A stretch of 64,000 nucleotides of DNA from Maylandia zebra (lineage: Eukaryota > Chordata > Actinopteri > Cichliformes > Cichlidae). Location: the NCBI RefSeq assembly GCF_041146795.1, contig NC_135188.1, positions 3,643,919 to 3,707,918 on the forward strand. Direction: 5' to 3'. Under the pieces are notes generated by a model. It worked only from the letters and a program-made list of their open reading frames with translations, did not search any database and had not been told where the DNA came from. The position numbers and the translations under genes are program-made. Position 1 is the first letter of the stretch; every line of letters starts with the position of its first letter. This document shows, in pieces, positions 20,101 to 60,122 of the stretch.

Positions 20101-22516
20101 TTGAAGATTGGATGATGACATACAGTAGTATGTAATCAATTTTTCTCAACATATCCCACATGTCATTCTAATAGAGAAAACACAAAACCATACTGGGATT
20201 CTGCTGCAGACCAAAGTCATTAATCAGAAACTAATGCAGCTTCTTCTATGTTCCACTTTGTGTGTTTCACAATTCACATTTTTGTGTTCCCTGACATTTG
20301 AACATGTGAGATGAGACAAACCTTACTAATCCTCAAAGGAAGTAAATTTATGATATATTTTGGGCTGCTTTAGAACATCGTGACAGCTCTGGACCAGACC
20401 TGGCACCCAGAGCACTTCTTCTGCGCACACTGCGGAGGCTTGTTTGGAACGGAAGGTGAGAGATTTGTGGATTATTTCTCTCCAATTGAAACCACAACTT
20501 TAGCAAATAACTCACTGCATCTTATGCCTATCCTAGGTTTCCTAGAGAAGGATGGGAAGCCATATTGTTGTAAGGACTTCTACTACCTCTTTGCTCCAAA
20601 GTGCTCAGGCTGTGGGGAGTCGGTGCGGGAGAATTACCTGACTGCAGCCAATGGCACCTGGCATCCAGAGTGCTTCGTCTGCGCAGTGAGCCTCTTACCT
20701 CAGACCACACACACAGCTCTGGCTTGCATACGAGCCTGAGAATAAATGAGAAAAGATACCCGCACGTTAGCTTTATTTGCAACATTTTGACCTCAACGCT
20801 GATGAAAACCATATGCCTGATGAATACTCTGCTGTTAGAAATGATGCAGATAAATCAAGGAAGTGTATTCCTCAGTGTGGGTATCTTTTACATTCTCTTC
20901 AAATCTATTTCTGTATGTAGCATCTGGTCAAAAATGGTTCAATGTGCAGCTCTGCTTTACTTAACATGTGCAAGTGTAAAACATAAAATGCCATCAGTAG
21001 TAAGAGACAAGCAGGAGCAACTGTAATATTAAGAATGTATTCATTGTTTTTCTGGCAGGTACTGAAATATGAGGTCCATAAACCTGACCATAAAACATAT
21101 AAAGGGCATTTTATTTCTTAATACCTATCACTTAAAATTATAATTAACATATCTTAGTTAATCATTAATCACAAACACCAACTACAACTACTTATTTTAT
21201 ACAAACCAGTCATTATCAATAAGGTCAGTTGTACCTGCTACCTAATAACCTAAAACTAATTCCAGCAGGCTGAAGGTCAGACACTCCATAAAAAAGGATG
21301 ACGTGGACACTCAAAGGTGGAGACTTTTTAATCAGCCTACTGATAAAAATAAATAAAACAGGTCATACAATTTAGGACCCTTGAACTTCCCCGCCACTTT
21401 TTCTGTTTCACAGCAACAGTAGAAACGTTTCCATACCATGAGTCATTTGCGTCCTGTAAGCCCCAGATGAAATTCCCCTGAAAGAGCAGTCATTAACACG
21501 GCTGTCACAGTGTTATTCTCATCACACATTTGCTAGTCATTAATTGCTTTATTTTGACTGTAATCTGTATGAAATCAGGCTAAAACTGTGACGCAACATC
21601 TATTGTTTTAGTCTGTTTTGTCACCAACACTGAGCAAACCAGCCCTTTGATGGACACAGATAACTCAGGTGTTCCAAGGCTTTGGAGCTGCTCATGCTGG
21701 TGCATAATAAATGGAACAGTGCCACTGGTGATGTTAAGAGTTACACCTGTGCTTTTACTGCTACGGTATGACAAGTCAAAGTGTCGGCCAAGAGAAACGA
21801 CCATAATCAAATTCAGTGCTGTACATGTAGGTTCCAATTATGCTTTAGCGGTTATTAACAGATTGTTAAAAGAAACACAGTTGTAACACTCCTTTAGTTT
21901 TCATATTAAAGGTCCATGCCATGTGATTTTGTGGCGCCGTCACTTCATTATCTGGCTGTAACAGTCAACCATTTTCCAGGCGCTTGGTTTCCCTTCACAT
22001 CGTAGACATTTAAAATGAATGATGGATTTAAAGTCTTTTACTTTCTCTCTAAAAGTTATCACTGCTGTATGTTAAGCAGTGTTGGGTATGACGTGTGGGT
22101 TGGGTTTGGCATCACTGTGTCTAATTGAAACTGTTATAGAAAAATCAAGAAAGTTTAACTGTTGGAAGTTTAAACTTCTTCTTCCATAACACCATGCCTA
22201 ATTTTACATAACGTTCTATCCTCCCTACTGCCCCTCTTCCTCTACGCAGGACTGCCTGAAGCCCTTCACTGATGGAATTTTCATGGAGCTCAATGGTCGT
22301 CCCCTCTGCTCGCTTCACTTTCACTCCAGGCAAGGCACTGTGTGCGGTGGCTGCGGAAAGCCCATCATCGGCCGCTGCATCTCTGCGATGGATCGCAAGT
22401 TTCACCCCGAGCACTTTGTGTGTGCCTTTTGTCTGCGGCAGCTCAGCCAGGGCATCTTCAAGGAGCAGAAAGGGAAACCATACTGCTCAGCTTGCTTTGA
22501 CAAACTCTTTGTCTGA
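17173..22516 (+). CDS. lpxn: Leupaxin (paxillin-family LIM adaptor), complete
   Basis: Nine coding exons: 17173-17185, 18182-18267, 18433-18500, 18866-18962, 19284-19526, 19656-19829, 20374-20455, 20537-20685 and 22250-22516. All have GT-AG borders and matching phases, giving 1179 nt and 392 aa (human leupaxin is 386). The N terminus, MDELDLLLEEL, is an LD1 motif. Further LD-type motifs are LDSILQDL (75-82) and the degenerate IDDLLGGL (135-142). Four LIM domains follow at about 159-209, 218-268, 277-327 and 336-386, with zinc ligands in the usual C-x2-C, H-x2-C pattern; LIM3 uses Cys in HPECFVC. The protein ends LFV. Leupaxin is a focal-adhesion and podosome scaffold that binds FAK/PYK2-type kinases through LD motifs and also works as a nuclear receptor co-regulator. 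The KGHCASC junction before LIM1 and the 392-aa length favour leupaxin over the longer paxillin or Hic-5. The short first exon is chosen because it restores LD1 in phase. Confidence 0.93.
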
Positions 22517-39129: not shown

Positions 39130-41757
39130 TGCGTTATGTTTATGTAAATGTTCAGGTATATATGAAAGACCCTTATACTGCAGTAAAACTGTGGAGTGGG
39201 GACTTAACGTGAAGGAGACTGCCAAGAGAAACTGTTACCGTTTGCCAACTTTATGGCTGTTTATGTGACAAACGCAAGTGGGAACACCCACGGGTGACTT
39301 ACTTCATTTGGGAAAGTTTCATTGACCTTTCAGAAGTGATCGTGTTTCAGTACTGTGGCGGCTTATTAAAACACTTATCGGGCATATTGGTAAAATTATG
39401 GACGTGGCTTGAACTCGCAGACCGTGAGGAAGTGCCGGAGTGCAGCCCGGACATATTCCAGCTCGGTTAATGTGCTTGCCCAGCCGGCTGTCTGACTTCC
39501 ACTTCTTGCATTTTCGACATAAAGAGCGGGGGGAAAGTTAATGGCCATCGTGACTTCAAGAATCATATCCAACACTCTTTTCTGTTGGAAAAAAAATACA
39601 GCACATGAAAACTGCCCAAGAGCCCAGAAACAGTCCAAAACAAAAACAAAACGCTTGGCACTTGAGTGTGCAGAAGATATTATTAAGGAGTTGTTTACAG
39701 ATCACAGACTTTGTTGTATTAGGTTGTCCTATAATAGTACTGTTGTCAGATATGGCTGAAGGCTTGCTCCATGTGATTTCTAATGCATCAGTACAGTGGT
39801 CTCTGTTTTCTGTTAAGAGTAATTACCCCCATAAAAAGGAACCCCGTGCGTCAAGGCTCGCCAGAAAAGTCAAAGCTGCCTTAGTAGAGAGGCTCTCGCC
39901 TCTTTTCAGGTCTTACACGAACACCGTCTCACTTTCCACGTCAAAACGTCTTCGTTTACGGTTAGGCCCAAGTACACGTCGTTAACGGTGGACGTGCAAA
40001 ATGCTTTATTAGTTTCCGCCCTTCCAAAATATGATATTAATCCCTTCCAAACCTTTCCCGTTACTCTTCGCAGACGAGTGGCCTTGGCCAGAGTGAAAAT
40101 GAGGTTAGAAACACAGAAACAAACGCAGTGTGTCTGCAAAAAATTTTGCCCTGAAATCAAATATGTTCATTTTGATTTATTTTGTCTAGCACAAGTTGGT
40201 GCCAGTAATTACGGTATGTAAATTGCAATTAATTATGATGATTATAGAAACATACCACAAGAGCACCGCTATTTGAAAAGTTGAAATGACAAAGGCAGCA
40301 TTGGCAGTATGCAGTGGAGCACAGCTGAAGAAAATCTTGATTAAATTTTAGAAATAAACATTTTCTAAGAAAAACTTTATTTTACAGTAATGGGTTTCAT
40401 CCCTCAAATGCCTGATTGCACTGTGTCTCAGCGGCCAGAAGTTTGATATTGTTTATAAAAGCTATTTTTTGTCATATTTAAATAATGCCAACATCAAAGT
40501 CATAGCACATGCAAAGCACATTTGCAGAGCAGCTAATAAGAAACATGTTTTAAATGCAGTAGAGCCTTATATTCATTTAGAACGACTGTGATTATTTAAT
40601 TTCAATTTTGACATTTCTTTCTATTAAAGACAACCACAACAGTAAAAAGCTGTAACACAAACTTTGGAGACAAAATCAGTGCTGTACTTGAGACTGTCAG
40701 CATTTCGTCCTCATGCCCGATGTCAAAAAAAGAAAGTAAAATCCCAAATATAAGTATCATAGTGAGGTCAGAATTGAGTGCAGGTTTCTTTCATGGTTTT
40801 TATGAGCTCCAGTGTAGTATATTTGCACCACAGCCCTGAAAATGCTTCCCAGGCCTAAAGAGGCTTTGGCAACCGAGGTATGCACCTCAACAATACACGG
40901 GGGTCTGTTTACAGCCCAGAAGGCCCCTCTATAAACTCCCTGACTGCAAGTGCTCGCAGCACAGCCCCAGGCTGACTAGACTTCATACTTCCTGCGGTGT
41001 AATTTTAAAATAGTATTTCAAATTTTTAACTTGTTGACCTGAGCCCATGAGCCAGTAAACCACAACAGAGGAAAAATCTGTCACTTTCAGTTTTAATGCG
41101 AGCTCTAACATGATGGTTTTGGTGTTTTTGTTTCTGTTTACTGTTAAAATCGTTTTCCTCTTCTTCTTTTTTGTGTGTTTTTTATAGCAAAGTGACATGA
41201 ACTCTTTCCTTTGGAGAGTAAAGCGGGCACCTCCTCACCCACCTTCTTACTTATTTGGTACCATCCACGTGCCCTACACCCGAGTCTGGGACTTCATTCC
41301 CAACAGCTCCAAGCAGGCTTTCCATGACAGCAATAATGTTTACTTTGAGCTGGACCTGACTGATCCCCTGACCATCTCCAAACTGACCAGCTGCCAGTTA
41401 CTGCCCCACGGAGAAAACCTGCAGACCCTGCTACCTCGAGATCTGTACCGCCGACTCAAACGCCATCTTGATTACGTCAAACACATGATGCCTTATTGGA
41501 TGACAGCTGACCAGCGAGGCCGAGGCCTGTATGCTGACTACCTGTTCAATGCTATTGCAGGGAACTGGGAGAGGAAGAGGCCTGTGTGGGTAATGCTGAT
41601 GGTAAACTCACTCACAGAATGGGACGTCCGGTCCAGGGGGACACCAGTGCTCGACCTGTTTCTAGCTCAAGAGGCAGAGCGAATGGGAAAGACTACAGGG
41701 GCAGTTGAGCAAGTGGAGGAGCAGTGTCATCCCCTCAATGGACTCAACTTCTCTCAG
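38532..41757 (+). CDS. trabd2a: TIKI-family Wnt-inactivating metalloprotease, first two coding exons (partial)
   Basis: Exons 38532-38645 and 41188-41757, both phase 0, give 228 residues ending in NGLNFSQ before a GTAAGA donor. Residues 1 to about 23 form a hydrophobic signal peptide. After a short basic linker with one Cys (33), the TIKI catalytic domain begins at QSDMNSFLW. It contains the GxxH metal-binding motif GTIH (62-65) in [10 protein letters not shown] and a conserved Glu in YFELDL (92). TIKI proteins are membrane-anchored metalloproteases that clip N-terminal residues from Wnt ligands, which then oxidise and lose receptor binding. Family members are about 500-570 aa; the second half with the FGAGH-type motif is not in this window. 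LPRD, LTSCQ and [11 protein letters not shown] lean to TIKI1 (trabd2a) rather than TIKI2, from memory only. The family call is firm, the paralogue is not. Confidence 0.85.
38646..41187 (+). other. trabd2a: TIKI gene intron 1
   Basis: This 2.5 kb intron has GTGAGT donor and TTTTTTATAG acceptor. Besides the ATA/AAT run at 39087-39122 I see no exon or recognised transposon in it. Confidence 0.75.
39087..39122 (+). repeat. (AAT)n microsatellite
   Basis: A run of about 12 TAA/AAT units in TIKI intron 1. Confidence 0.9.
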
Positions 41758-55800: not shown

Positions 55801-56795
55801 AGCCAGTAAGCAACGACCTGCTGCTCTTGTACACATTACATTCATTACATTCACCTTGTCTCAGTCCACCAATGCCATTGTCACTCCATATTACATCTAG
55901 CACTTTCATTATTAATGATATCATTATTAGCAGCAAACTGGATTGCATGCTTCTAACAGGTGATTGAAACATCGCCCACTAATTATAGTTCTGGATACAA
56001 ACAGGAGCAGTGATGGAATTGCTGTTGTTTATGAGAACATTGTTAATTGTGAATCTGCGTCATGCATCTCTGCAAGAAACATTTAAAAAGTCATGAAATT
56101 GGAACATGATCAATAGATTTTTATAATGAGCTATTGAGTCCAAATGCTACAAATGATATAAGACAGAAGAAGGAACAACAAATGAATCTGGAAACTATTT
56201 AATTGACCTTTGTGTCATAAAACGGCATATTTGAGGAAAAGCGTACTGCTTCATTCCAAATGTTTAAAAACTGAAAGACAGCCAGAATCCATTTTTTATG
56301 TTTATCAGAAGAGGATTTCTGAAGAAAGGAACTGGTCGGGTCATATATACAGTACTACACAAACTACACTATCTTACCTCATCCCTGCTGGTGTTTACAT
56401 AAAATGGCCCCTGACTCAAACAAAAGCGGGAATGCTCCTTGGAAACCGTGTGAAGAGAAGATTAGAGTGATGAAGATGGGAAAGAGGATGGGAAAAAATC
56501 AAACTACATAAATTTACAGGAAGAAGTCAAAATGCTAAAGAAAGAAAACTAAAAGTGAAAAAGTTGTCTTTGTTTTTTCTTGGTTTCTGATTTTTCAGAT
56601 TCTTAAACAGAAACTTTGTTAAGTTTTCTGAACTGTTGTTCTTTGCTTTTCATGTAATTCTACCTTTATATTTAGTTTCCAAAGATTTTTATGCAACCAT
56701 TTCTAAATTTCTTACTCTCCATATTACTTGTGTTGTGCATAAGGAGTGTTATCTGGTGTTTACTAAATCACTTATTGTAGAAATTGATAGGTTTA

Positions 56796-59700
56796 AGAGT
56801 ACTCTTAAATCCCCCAAATTATTATCTAAAATATACAGAACACTTTCTAAATTAGATGAATCAATATCCCTTCCTACTGCAAAGTGGGAAGCAGATTTAT
56901 CAGTCAACCTAGACCAAAACTTCTGGTCTCAGATTTGCTTAAAAACTTTTAAATTAATTAAAAATCCCAGTCTGCAATTAATACAATACAAAATACTACA
57001 TAGAGTGCACTATACAGGTCATCGGATGTTCAAGATGGGCTTTACATCTTCCAACAACTGCTCACACTGTCAAGGCAATACACCAGACAATTACATCCAC
57101 GCTCTTTGGTTCTGTCCACCAGTGCAAAAGTTTTGGCGCGAGATATGTGAAGACTTATCAAAATGTCTGAAATGTAACATTCCAACTTCCCCCTTAGTGT
57201 GTCTACTGGGCAGCTTAGATAATGTCACTTCAGAAAAGAATATAGCCCATATGGTTTTCACTGCCCTATGCATAGCCAAGAAAACAGTCCTCATGAACTG
57301 GAAAAATAAAAATAATCTTAATTCTAACCAATATAGAAATTATCTATTAGATTACATTAGTCTTGACACAGCCTCTGCCACCACATTAGATCAATTGCTC
57401 TGGGCCCCTTTTATCAGCTCCATCACCTAGTGGGGGTGGGGGGTCATAGTTTGGTCCCGCCTTCACTGTTGTGATTGGTGAGGGGGTAGGGACAGGCTTA
57501 GGGCGTCGGGGGGTTCCCCGGAGGCATCTTCCTTGGGGAGCTCAACCCGGGGTAGCGGTCACGTCCGGTTGGGGGCTCTGTTGGCTCTCAGGTGACTGTT
57601 TCCTCGCGGCTGCGTGCAGCGGGGCTAGGGGAGGGTCTGTGCTGACGGACGTGGGTTACTGACCTGGCAACCTGGCTGCCCCTGGGTGGGTCCGGGATGG
57701 GCGTGAGGTTCTGGGGGCGCTCCGTCTCTGGGCTGGGGCCCGGGCCGGGCCTCGGGGGCTTGGGTCCTGGTTGGTGTGTTGCCGGGGTTGTGGGCGGGTG
57801 GGTGCATGGGGGCCCGGCCCTGGAGCAGGGTGCCGCCGGTGCGTCGAGCCGCCTGGGGGGCTCTTCAACTGCTGGGGGGGATGGTCACATCTTGCAGGAG
57901 CTTTCTTCTCTTCAGGAACTCTCTGCAGGAGGGGGAGATACAGGAGAGGTGGAGGAAGATCTCAGCCTGGGCGTTTACCGTCTTATGTAGTCTGGAAGAT
58001 GTGTGGATGGTGGGGTGGGTGCAGTTTTCTCTGTGGTGGGGTTGGGTGGACTGTCCAGGGCTCTGTGGAGCCGGGGGGCGCTACTGCACTGGGCCCCGGT
58101 CTGATGGGCCTGGGCCCCCCTTCCCTGGCGGGTCGCGGAGGGTGGGGGTGCCTACTGGGGTCAGCGGGGGAGCTGGCCCCAGGGAGGGGTTACCTGCCCC
58201 TCCCTTCCTTCCCTCCCCATCTCCAGCTGCCTCCCTCTTCCCGCTCCTCCACAACCACCCACACATGCAGGGCCTTGGAGTGGGGGTATGTCACCAGGGT
58301 GCAGAGGAGGCTACCCCCCCCCCCCTGTCCCCTTCTGGCTGCCTCTGCCTCAATTTTATCCCACAACTTAGACATTCACATTATTCACACTCTCATTACA
58401 CATACATATAGGATCTTGGGGGTGGGCACAATCACGGAGTCCAAATTACCATCAGGGTGTATACCTCACCCCTGACGTCGTTGCCCACCTCTCAATTTTA
58501 AATACACTTAGACATTGAGGGCTATCAGGAGGGACTATGCGCTTACCTGCTGCTCCTTGGCAGGTAGCTCCATGCCCTCCTGGGTTTTAATTGCACCTTA
58601 GAACACACATGCATCAACATTACAATGAGCGGGTGGAGGGAGGTTTGGAGTCTTCTCCCACCCCCATTCTCTGCGGCCTGCTGGAGCGGGAGGGCTAGTA
58701 GGAGGAGTTGGCCGTCCGACTGCGGTCTGGGGTGTGGGGCCTCCCTGCTGCTGCGGAGTCGGGGTGGTCTGCCTCTCCCCACCGCAGGGAAAAGGGTAAC
58801 ACCACCTGGGTCTGGGTGCAATTCCCCCCTCCAGGGGCAAGGGTACCTAGACCCGGTTTGTAGAGTACGCTTGGGGAGTGTGATTGTGTGTACAGCGTCT
58901 CTTTATGTCTGTCTCCACGTTGGTTGAGTGTGGAGTAAGTGCATATGAGAGCATGAGGGTGGGAATGGATGTTTGTGTCTGTGTGTGCCTGTATGTCTGT
59001 GTCTATATGTCAGGTTGGGTATCAGACGCCACCTCTCTGGGGACACCTCAGGCCCTCCAAGGTTTGGAGGCCTATCTCCACCCACCACCACTTCCCCTGC
59101 CGGTGGCGGACTCCCTCAGGTGTCGGTGTGTTGGTGGTTCTTTGTGTCTGGGGGTGGGCGTCCGGGTACACACCGGCTCACTCCTTGGCGGCCGCTTGTC
59201 GGGGCCTGGGGCCTGGGGCTCGCTCGGGCCCCTTTGGAGATAGGGTGCCCCCGGCCTCTCGGCCTGGGGCTCGGTCACTAAGGCACAGCTGGGGGCCGGC
59301 GGAGCTCACGGGCGCGTCACTGCAACTCCCCCTGACTTCTGCTCCGCGGCTGCTGGGCGAGCCCTCATCTGGGACTCTCCTCAGCTCTTACTGGAACAGT
59401 GGCGCGGCTGCCCCTCTGTTGGTCTTCCATGGTCTCTTGTGTTCTGGGGGCCTCTGGATGTCTGGAGTTTTGATCTCCTCCATACCTGCTTCACACCCTG
59501 GAGGACGGGGCTGTGGCCCCCCCACACCCTCTAGCAGATCATTACATGGAGAAACCTTTGGAATGCAAGCATGCTGATCCACACAGGTATGCACACATGG
59601 GTATTCACAGACGCGGACTAAAGCTTTCTTGGCTGCTGCCTCAAAGCACACTGTGCGCTGTCTATCTTGCGTGCTGCACAATATCGTTTATTATTTAGTA

Positions 59701-60105
59701 AATATTGATATCTATGACTAGCTAGTTTATTGTGATGGTGCTTTGTTTTCTCTATTATTATGTTGCTCTTTGTTGTTTGCTGTCTCCTCTGTTTGTTTTT
59801 TTTGTTTGTTTTTTTTTTTTCTCCATACAGGTGACCCAGGAGTTCTTTTTTTTTTCTCTCTCTTCCCCCCCCTTCTCACCGTCTCTTCTCCCCTTTGGTT
59901 TTCTTTCTTTCTCTCCCCCTCTCTCTCTCATTCATTCCCCCTGTCCTATTTATTAAAAAAAAAAAAAAAAAAAAAAAATGACAAAGGATGAACTGAAGCT
60001 CTGCCATCACGTAATGTTGCATACTGCTGTTTCTGATGTCATTTAAAAAAAAAAAAAAAAGAAAAAAAAAAAAAAAAAAAAAGAAAAGACTTGATAAAAA
60101 AAAAA
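56796..60105 (+). mobile_element. 5'-truncated L1-clade LINE insertion with long GC-rich 3' UTR and poly(A)
   Basis: The insert is bounded by a perfect 17-bp direct repeat, AGAAATTGATAGGTTTA, at 56779-56795 and 60106-60122. The right copy directly follows A-rich sequence (60044-60105). The insert begins inside the C-terminal part of an ORF2, reads to a stop at 57430, then continues through about 2.5 kb of strikingly GC-rich sequence and a CT-rich block (59830-59945). It ends in two A-rich blocks, 59955-59978 and 60044-60105. This is target-primed reverse transcription structure: 5' truncation, poly(A) tail and target-site duplication. Open frames within the GC-rich tail are chance frames. The perfect duplication and undamaged ORF suggest a recent insertion. 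Confidence 0.88.
56797..57430 (+). pseudogene. C-terminal fragment of LINE ORF2 (reverse transcriptase protein)
   Basis: About 210 codons are open from the insertion boundary to the TAG at 57428-57430. The fragment begins STLKSPKLLSKIY and includes AKWEADL, FWSQICLKTFK and a Cys/His motif C-x2-C-x9-H-x4-C (CSHCQG through ALWFC) followed by FWREI. This matches the zinc-knuckle-like C-terminal region of L1-clade ORF2 proteins, downstream of the reverse transcriptase domain. The endonuclease and reverse transcriptase domains are absent because of 5' truncation, so it cannot act on its own. The open frame extends upstream to 56636, but that part is flanking host DNA. Confidence 0.85.
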
Positions 60106-60122
60106 AGAAATTGATAGGTTTA

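Follow-up and report, generated by a model that had tools for sequence, protein, structure and literature searches.

A perfect 17-bp direct repeat that flanks 3.3 kb of DNA in the genome of the cichlid Maylandia zebra raises two questions, namely whether the repeat is the target-site duplication (TSD) of a single retrotransposition and, if so, whether its perfection tells us when that event took place. The locus lies in a window of 64,000 nucleotides, the whole stretch of DNA that was analyzed (C22:3643919-3707918 of a 962-Mb assembly), and all genome comparisons described below were made within this one assembly of one individual. An initial annotation of the window had reported the repeat as a TSD, and an exact-repeat search returned the same perfect pair, AGAAATTGATAGGTTTA, and placed it identically (Table 1). 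There was no further match to AGAAATTGATAGGTTTA elsewhere in the 64-kb window with up to three mismatches allowed; at that tolerance the mean for shuffled sequence was 0.43, and an exact pair is far rarer. We regard it as almost certain that the insert between the repeats is a single, 5′-truncated retrotransposition of a LINE of the L1 clade.

The two 17-mers are separated by 3,310 bp (56796-60105), and on its sense strand the insert consists of the last 209 codons of ORF2, then 2.5 kb of GC-rich 3′ region, then a tail rich in A. L1 homology starts at 56800, and in 20 of 20 fetched copies the same L1 point is preceded by CACATTTTCT, where the insert has AGAG. Together with the adjoining TACTCT (56796-56805), these four bases read as a perfect palindrome, the kind of junction expected if the end of the cDNA had folded back; its chance probability is about 1 in 256. 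The ORF2 fragment was said to contain no internal stop; indeed, the window frame is open for 209 codons, and all 21 copies that were examined have the stop that follows at the identical position. The zf-RVT match in this frame is weak (E 0.0012, under the curated cut-off). Upstream of 56796, the stop-to-stop frame of 279 codons (56591-57427) is host DNA throughout, and the 264-codon ORF reported earlier corresponds to a TTG start at 56636, which confirms that its first 53 or so codons belong to the host. GC content reaches 62% over 57431-59560 of the 3′ region, and frames of 114, 234 and 270 codons in this region gave no Pfam match and are consistent with the scarcity of stops in GC-rich sequence. 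The + strand of the insert has four G-tract (quadruplex-type) and two C-type motifs at 57684-59228, vs. three and none, respectively, in the window's other 60.5 kb. The A-rich tail of the initial annotation is present, although a 64-nt segment divides it into two A-tracts. The terminal tract is the longest of 16 tails measured (the others range from 13 to 33 nt). The GACTTGAT that interrupts it has TTGAT in common with the target site, a match too short for interpretation and, accordingly, for any claim that the target site is partly repeated there.

Table 1. Coordinates of the insertion and its host locus, numbered from the first base of the window.
Feature	Position	Strand	Basis
Upstream exon of probable host gene, TraB/PrgY/gumN domain (profile 1-162)	41206..41757	+	Pfam PF01963
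5′ TSD copy, 17 bp, host DNA	56779..56795	+	Exact repeat; single-copy 5′ flank; adjoins L1 5′ truncation point
Four extra bases (AGAG) at TSD/L1 junction	56796..56799	+	Unmatched in 39 other scored copies
L1 ORF2 3′ end, 209 codons, zinc-knuckle region	56800..57427	+	Open frame; stop follows at 57428-57430
L1 3′ region, GC-rich, G-/C-tract motifs	57431..59954	+	Common to family copies; composition
A-tract 1, internal, variable length, family-wide	59955..59978	+	Comparison of copies
Terminal module, 64 nt	59980..60043	+	Found in almost every copy sampled
Terminal A-rich tail, 62 nt, broken by GACTTGAT at 60088-60095	60044..60105	+	Sequence
3′ TSD copy, 17 bp, host DNA	60106..60122	+	Exact repeat

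A search of the genome for near-identical copies with longer 5′ ends, as suggested in the initial annotation, found many. The first search produced 1,328 first-look candidates, 40 of which were scored (the window copy plus 39 others), and the 39 others match at ~99% identity over 797 bp. Twenty of the 39 were fetched at 10 kb each. All 20 are longer at the 5′ end and begin at 20 different points as placed by alignment, a truncation series whose members are longer by selection, since only matches extending to the query start were taken. An exact 22-mer located just before A-tract 1, near the L1 3′ end, has 770 matches in the genome, whereas its reversed control has none. The longest copies (~8 kb) contain a 313-codon frame, a 151-codon frame and a 1,259-codon ORF2, and ORF2 is uninterrupted in several copies. 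In copy L014, the 1,259-codon frame matches the Pfam families RVT_1 (9.2e-41) and Exo_endo_phos (1.6e-18), together with zf-RVT at a level under the curated cut-off (E 0.0029), and its closest match is human LINE-1 ORF2p (E 1.7e-174), the nearest solved relative (PDB 8uw3, 8sxt). Given an AP-type endonuclease and a reverse transcriptase that are nearest to those of L1, the family falls within the L1 clade of non-LTR retrotransposons. The 313-codon frame of L014 (ORF1) gave weak, sub-cut-off matches to coiled-coil families, with no L1 ORF1 family among them, and ORF1 is absent from the window copy, which keeps only the end of ORF2. The 151-codon frame, located between ORF1 and ORF2 (L014 2251-2703), has no Pfam match in L014 and is open in five of the six listed copies that span it (L014, L023, L016, L022 and, with 155 codons, L015; not L013).

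Some copies are rearranged. A single L1 insertion with a 17-bp TSD occupies 5294-10000 of L018 (oriented) and continues in L041 (C18:7925817-7941816); it contains a 1,405-bp internal segment three times in tandem, the copies being 99.8-99.9% alike, and could reflect either a local triplication inside the L1 or repeated template jumps. In L017 (at 7313) and L024 (at 7320), both oriented, ~1.3 kb of the 3′ region is gone, and the deletions begin at a poly-C run that corresponds to window 58314-58325. A spliced 3′ region was considered for these two copies and rejected, since their right ends are not common while both left ends fall at the poly-C run.

The two-part 3′ end deserves separate consideration. 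L1 3′ transduction places an A-tract, a unique segment and an A-tail in that order at the 3′ end, and the same order is seen here. Unlike such a segment, the 64 nt occur in nearly all sampled copies, which rules against a private transduction by the window copy; at most, a transduction took place in the ancestor of the family and became fixed there. The arrangement of A-tract, 64-nt module and second A-tail was found in 18 of the 19 readable loci among the first 20 (L022 is masked), the exception being L023, and the module is present in 31 of 34 further copies; it is absent from L062, L084 and L068, the last of which has a second A-run after an interruption. An exact 22-mer within the module has 776 genome matches (reversed control, 0), and an L1 end precedes the module in all 12 that were fetched of 40 listed matches. 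For C1 and C2, the complete lists contain 84 L1 ends and 85 modules that match exactly; these form 78 pairs, with an implied A-tract 1 length of 8-51. Six L1 ends on these contigs are unpaired, the module being mutated in two (L095, L098) and absent in four (L093, L094, L096, L097), and L096 has a different short segment between its A-runs. Seven modules are likewise unpaired: five follow a mismatched L1 end, and two (L087, L090) have non-L1 DNA upstream. The latter were considered as template-switch chimeras, but their TSDs lie directly before A-tract 1, identifying L087/L099 and L090/L100 as L1 insertions truncated almost to the tail, only ~148 and 115 bp long (A-tract, module and A-tail), flanked by 13- and 16-bp TSDs, respectively. 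The L090/L100 insertion lies in what appears to be BEL/Pao-type coding sequence. With 78 exact L1 ends, five mutated ones and two near-tail truncations, all 85 modules on C1 and C2 therefore belong to L1 copies. The fold of the module was no more stable than those of shuffled sequences (z 0.53), and an Rfam search of its 64 nt returned nothing above the gathering score and one match below it (GA-cis, E 0.37).

In some 5-9% of the copies sampled, the element ends at A-tract 1. In L023, the sole module-less copy whose end was tested, the copy's own 18-bp TSD directly follows A-tract 1. L023 is nested with L015 and L044 in the tree (support 92), and the module is present in L015 and, via its 3′ end L054, in L044. 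This nesting among module-bearing copies indicates that the module was lost at insertion rather than ancestrally absent. In this copy at least, A-tract 1 thus served as an additional point at which the RNA ended or priming began. It is conceivable, though we put it forward tentatively, that an ancient 3′ transduction, fixed in the founder, gave rise to the two-part 3′ end, that every RNA consequently offers two A-tracts, and that in the same 5-9% of insertions the module is dropped because reverse transcription begins, or the RNA terminates, at A-tract 1.

The initial annotation inferred a young and possibly polymorphic insertion from the perfect TSD and the open reading frame, a reading that these arguments do not support. 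The family itself is young: the mean pairwise difference is 0.86% among 16 copies, a comparison that omits five fetched loci that are rearranged or masked (L017, L018, L022, L023 and L024). The two arguments themselves are nearly uninformative about age, however, and private substitutions place the window copy toward the older end of the near relatives sampled, not among the newest. At 0.39% divergence, the two 17-mers would remain identical with a probability of 0.88, and 209 codons would lack a stop with a probability of 0.89 (assuming a nonsense fraction of 4.7%; the 5.5% computed for the window ORF makes little change). Since a perfect TSD and an open frame would each be expected in 88-89% of cases at this divergence, neither shows that the insertion is very young. 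In an alignment with 15 other copies, 12 of 3,100 gap-free columns contain a substitution private to the window copy (range for the others, 3-15), and the terminal branch of the window copy is the second longest of 16. Ten further copies, taken from the best matches to the L1 3′ region, brought the tree to 26 copies. In this set the window copy has nine private substitutions in 2,434 sites (0.37%; range for the rest, 2-11). Its terminal branch, at 16.1 substitutions, ties with that of L015 and is exceeded by those of L009 and L021, which makes it third or fourth of the 26 in a tree where branch supports near the window copy are mostly low and where it is compared with 25 of many hundreds of copies. 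When L023 was added, eight private substitutions were counted in 2,392 sites.

A study of Malawi-region cichlids uses a rate of 3.5e-9 per site per generation and a generation time of 3 years (PMC12186717). With these borrowed values, nine private changes correspond to 1.06 million generations (Poisson 95% 0.48-2.01 million), or ~3.2 million years (1.45-6.0), a figure that is likely an upper bound, since some of the changes are perhaps subfamily variants. The insertion would thus date from about 0.5-2 million generations ago. On the evidence of its private substitutions and terminal branch length, we consider it probable that the element inserted ~1 million generations ago and is now fixed and common to close relatives, bearing in mind that both rate and generation time are borrowed and that changes counted as private may be subfamily variants present in unsampled copies, in which case the copy is younger. 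That the element inserted very recently and is still polymorphic in the population seems unlikely by comparison. Such an origin would accord with the perfect TSD, the stop-free ORF2 fragment, the low divergence of the family and the long A-tail, which points mildly toward youth, and TE insertions do segregate in cichlids (PMC11753138). Yet the first two features are expected at the frequencies given above even at 0.39% divergence, the private divergence of 0.37% exceeds the SNP divergence of 0.1-0.25% quoted for Lake Malawi species pairs (PMC11753138), and the rate from PMC12186717 implies ~1.1 million generations (0.48-2.0 million). If the species belongs to the Malawi radiation, it is more likely that the insertion predates the radiation than that it segregates within one species.

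Regardless of its age, the duplication at the window locus can be compared with those of other copies. A TSD of its own was found for 17 of the 20 fetched copies, 15 in one set plus L018 (17 bp) and L023 (18 bp). That of L010 is weak (9 bp, mostly A); L009 lies in a microsatellite, where the TSD is ambiguous, L022 is masked at the 3′ end, and in L017 a TSD was looked for and not found. The 16 measured TSDs, window included, range from 9 to 17 bp (median 14.5), and the 17-bp duplication of the window is at the upper end of this range but ordinary. Between TSD and L1, 1-8 extra bases occur in six of the 16 measured sites. The endonuclease of L1 prefers TTTT/AA-like sites. In our sample, the base preceding the TSD is a pyrimidine at 14 of 16 sites, window included, and purines account for 67 of 80 bases at TSD positions +1 to +5 (16 sites; background 0.50), counts that are biased because setting the TSD edge by maximal extension pulls an adjoining A in and leaves a non-A before it. 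The part free of this bias is the preponderance of T/C over G before the TSD (14 to 2) and the excess of G among the first bases. The nick context matches the TTTT/AA-like preference and constitutes supporting, not independent, evidence.

Independent support that the 17-bp repeat is a target-site duplication comes from the host locus, where the 5′ flank of the insert is single-copy genome-wide and the insert itself is highly repeated. The next TraB-domain match after the exon in Table 1 (profile 200-243) is at C22:3734685, also on the + strand and outside the window (coordinate 90767). Because the two matches lie on either side of the L1 and on the same strand, the element probably sits in an intron of a TraB-domain gene, in sense orientation. 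This host gene is presumably a TRABD2/TIKI gene; motif words expected in later TRABD2/TIKI exons had no match on the + strand of the window. Exons of a LIM-domain protein, which we take to be paxillin/leupaxin-like, occur on the + strand at window 20374-22513 (Pfam LIM in both ORFs scanned).

By analogy with general L1 biology, the insertion probably proceeded by ordinary target-primed reverse transcription. The endonuclease of an L1 copy would have nicked the bottom strand at 5′-...CAATTTCT/ACAATA-3′, whereupon the A-tail of the L1 RNA would have annealed at the nick and reverse transcription begun. Synthesis would have come to a halt after ~3.3 kb, within the end of ORF2, and a staggered second cut followed by joining would have left the 17-bp duplication and the four extra bases. 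There is only a negligible chance that the 17-mer pair and its insert arose instead by segmental duplication or recombination between repeats, an origin for which no support was found and which is contradicted by the single-copy 5′ flank, by the 5′ truncation, A-tail and nick context, and by the unrelated duplications at other copies. No evidence against an L1 insertion was found. The L1-type insertion proposed in the initial annotation has in its favor homology and copy number, the truncated 5′ end and the A-tail, the nick-site context, and the independent TSDs at other copies. The insertion is real but ordinary in kind, a member of a known L1 type.

Like human LINE-1, the fish family combines an AP endonuclease and a reverse transcriptase in one ORF2 (1,259 vs. 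1,275 residues in human), and it resembles LINE-1 in its A-tail, 5′ truncation, TSDs (9-18 bp in the fish) and purine-rich targets in which a pyrimidine precedes the nick. Mammalian L1 likewise has a G-rich 3′ region. In contrast to LINE-1, the longest fish copy is ~8 kb, the 3′ region is GC-rich over 2.5 kb, the 3′ end is in two parts (A-tract, 64 nt, A-tail), and ORF1 is weakly coiled-coil-like. A paper on teleost L1 lineages (Duvernell et al. 2004, cited in PMC5389967) has "low copy number" in its title. As far as that title goes, young, 5′-truncated L1 copies in a fish genome are common ground, whereas the at least 770 exact 3′-end matches found here are more than such a title would suggest.

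The insertion alone alters no general picture. It does document a well-amplified young L1 family in an African cichlid, and, as a clean insertion in a probable intron, it is a candidate presence/absence marker. Its perfect target-site duplication also makes a case against using such a duplication to date an insertion.
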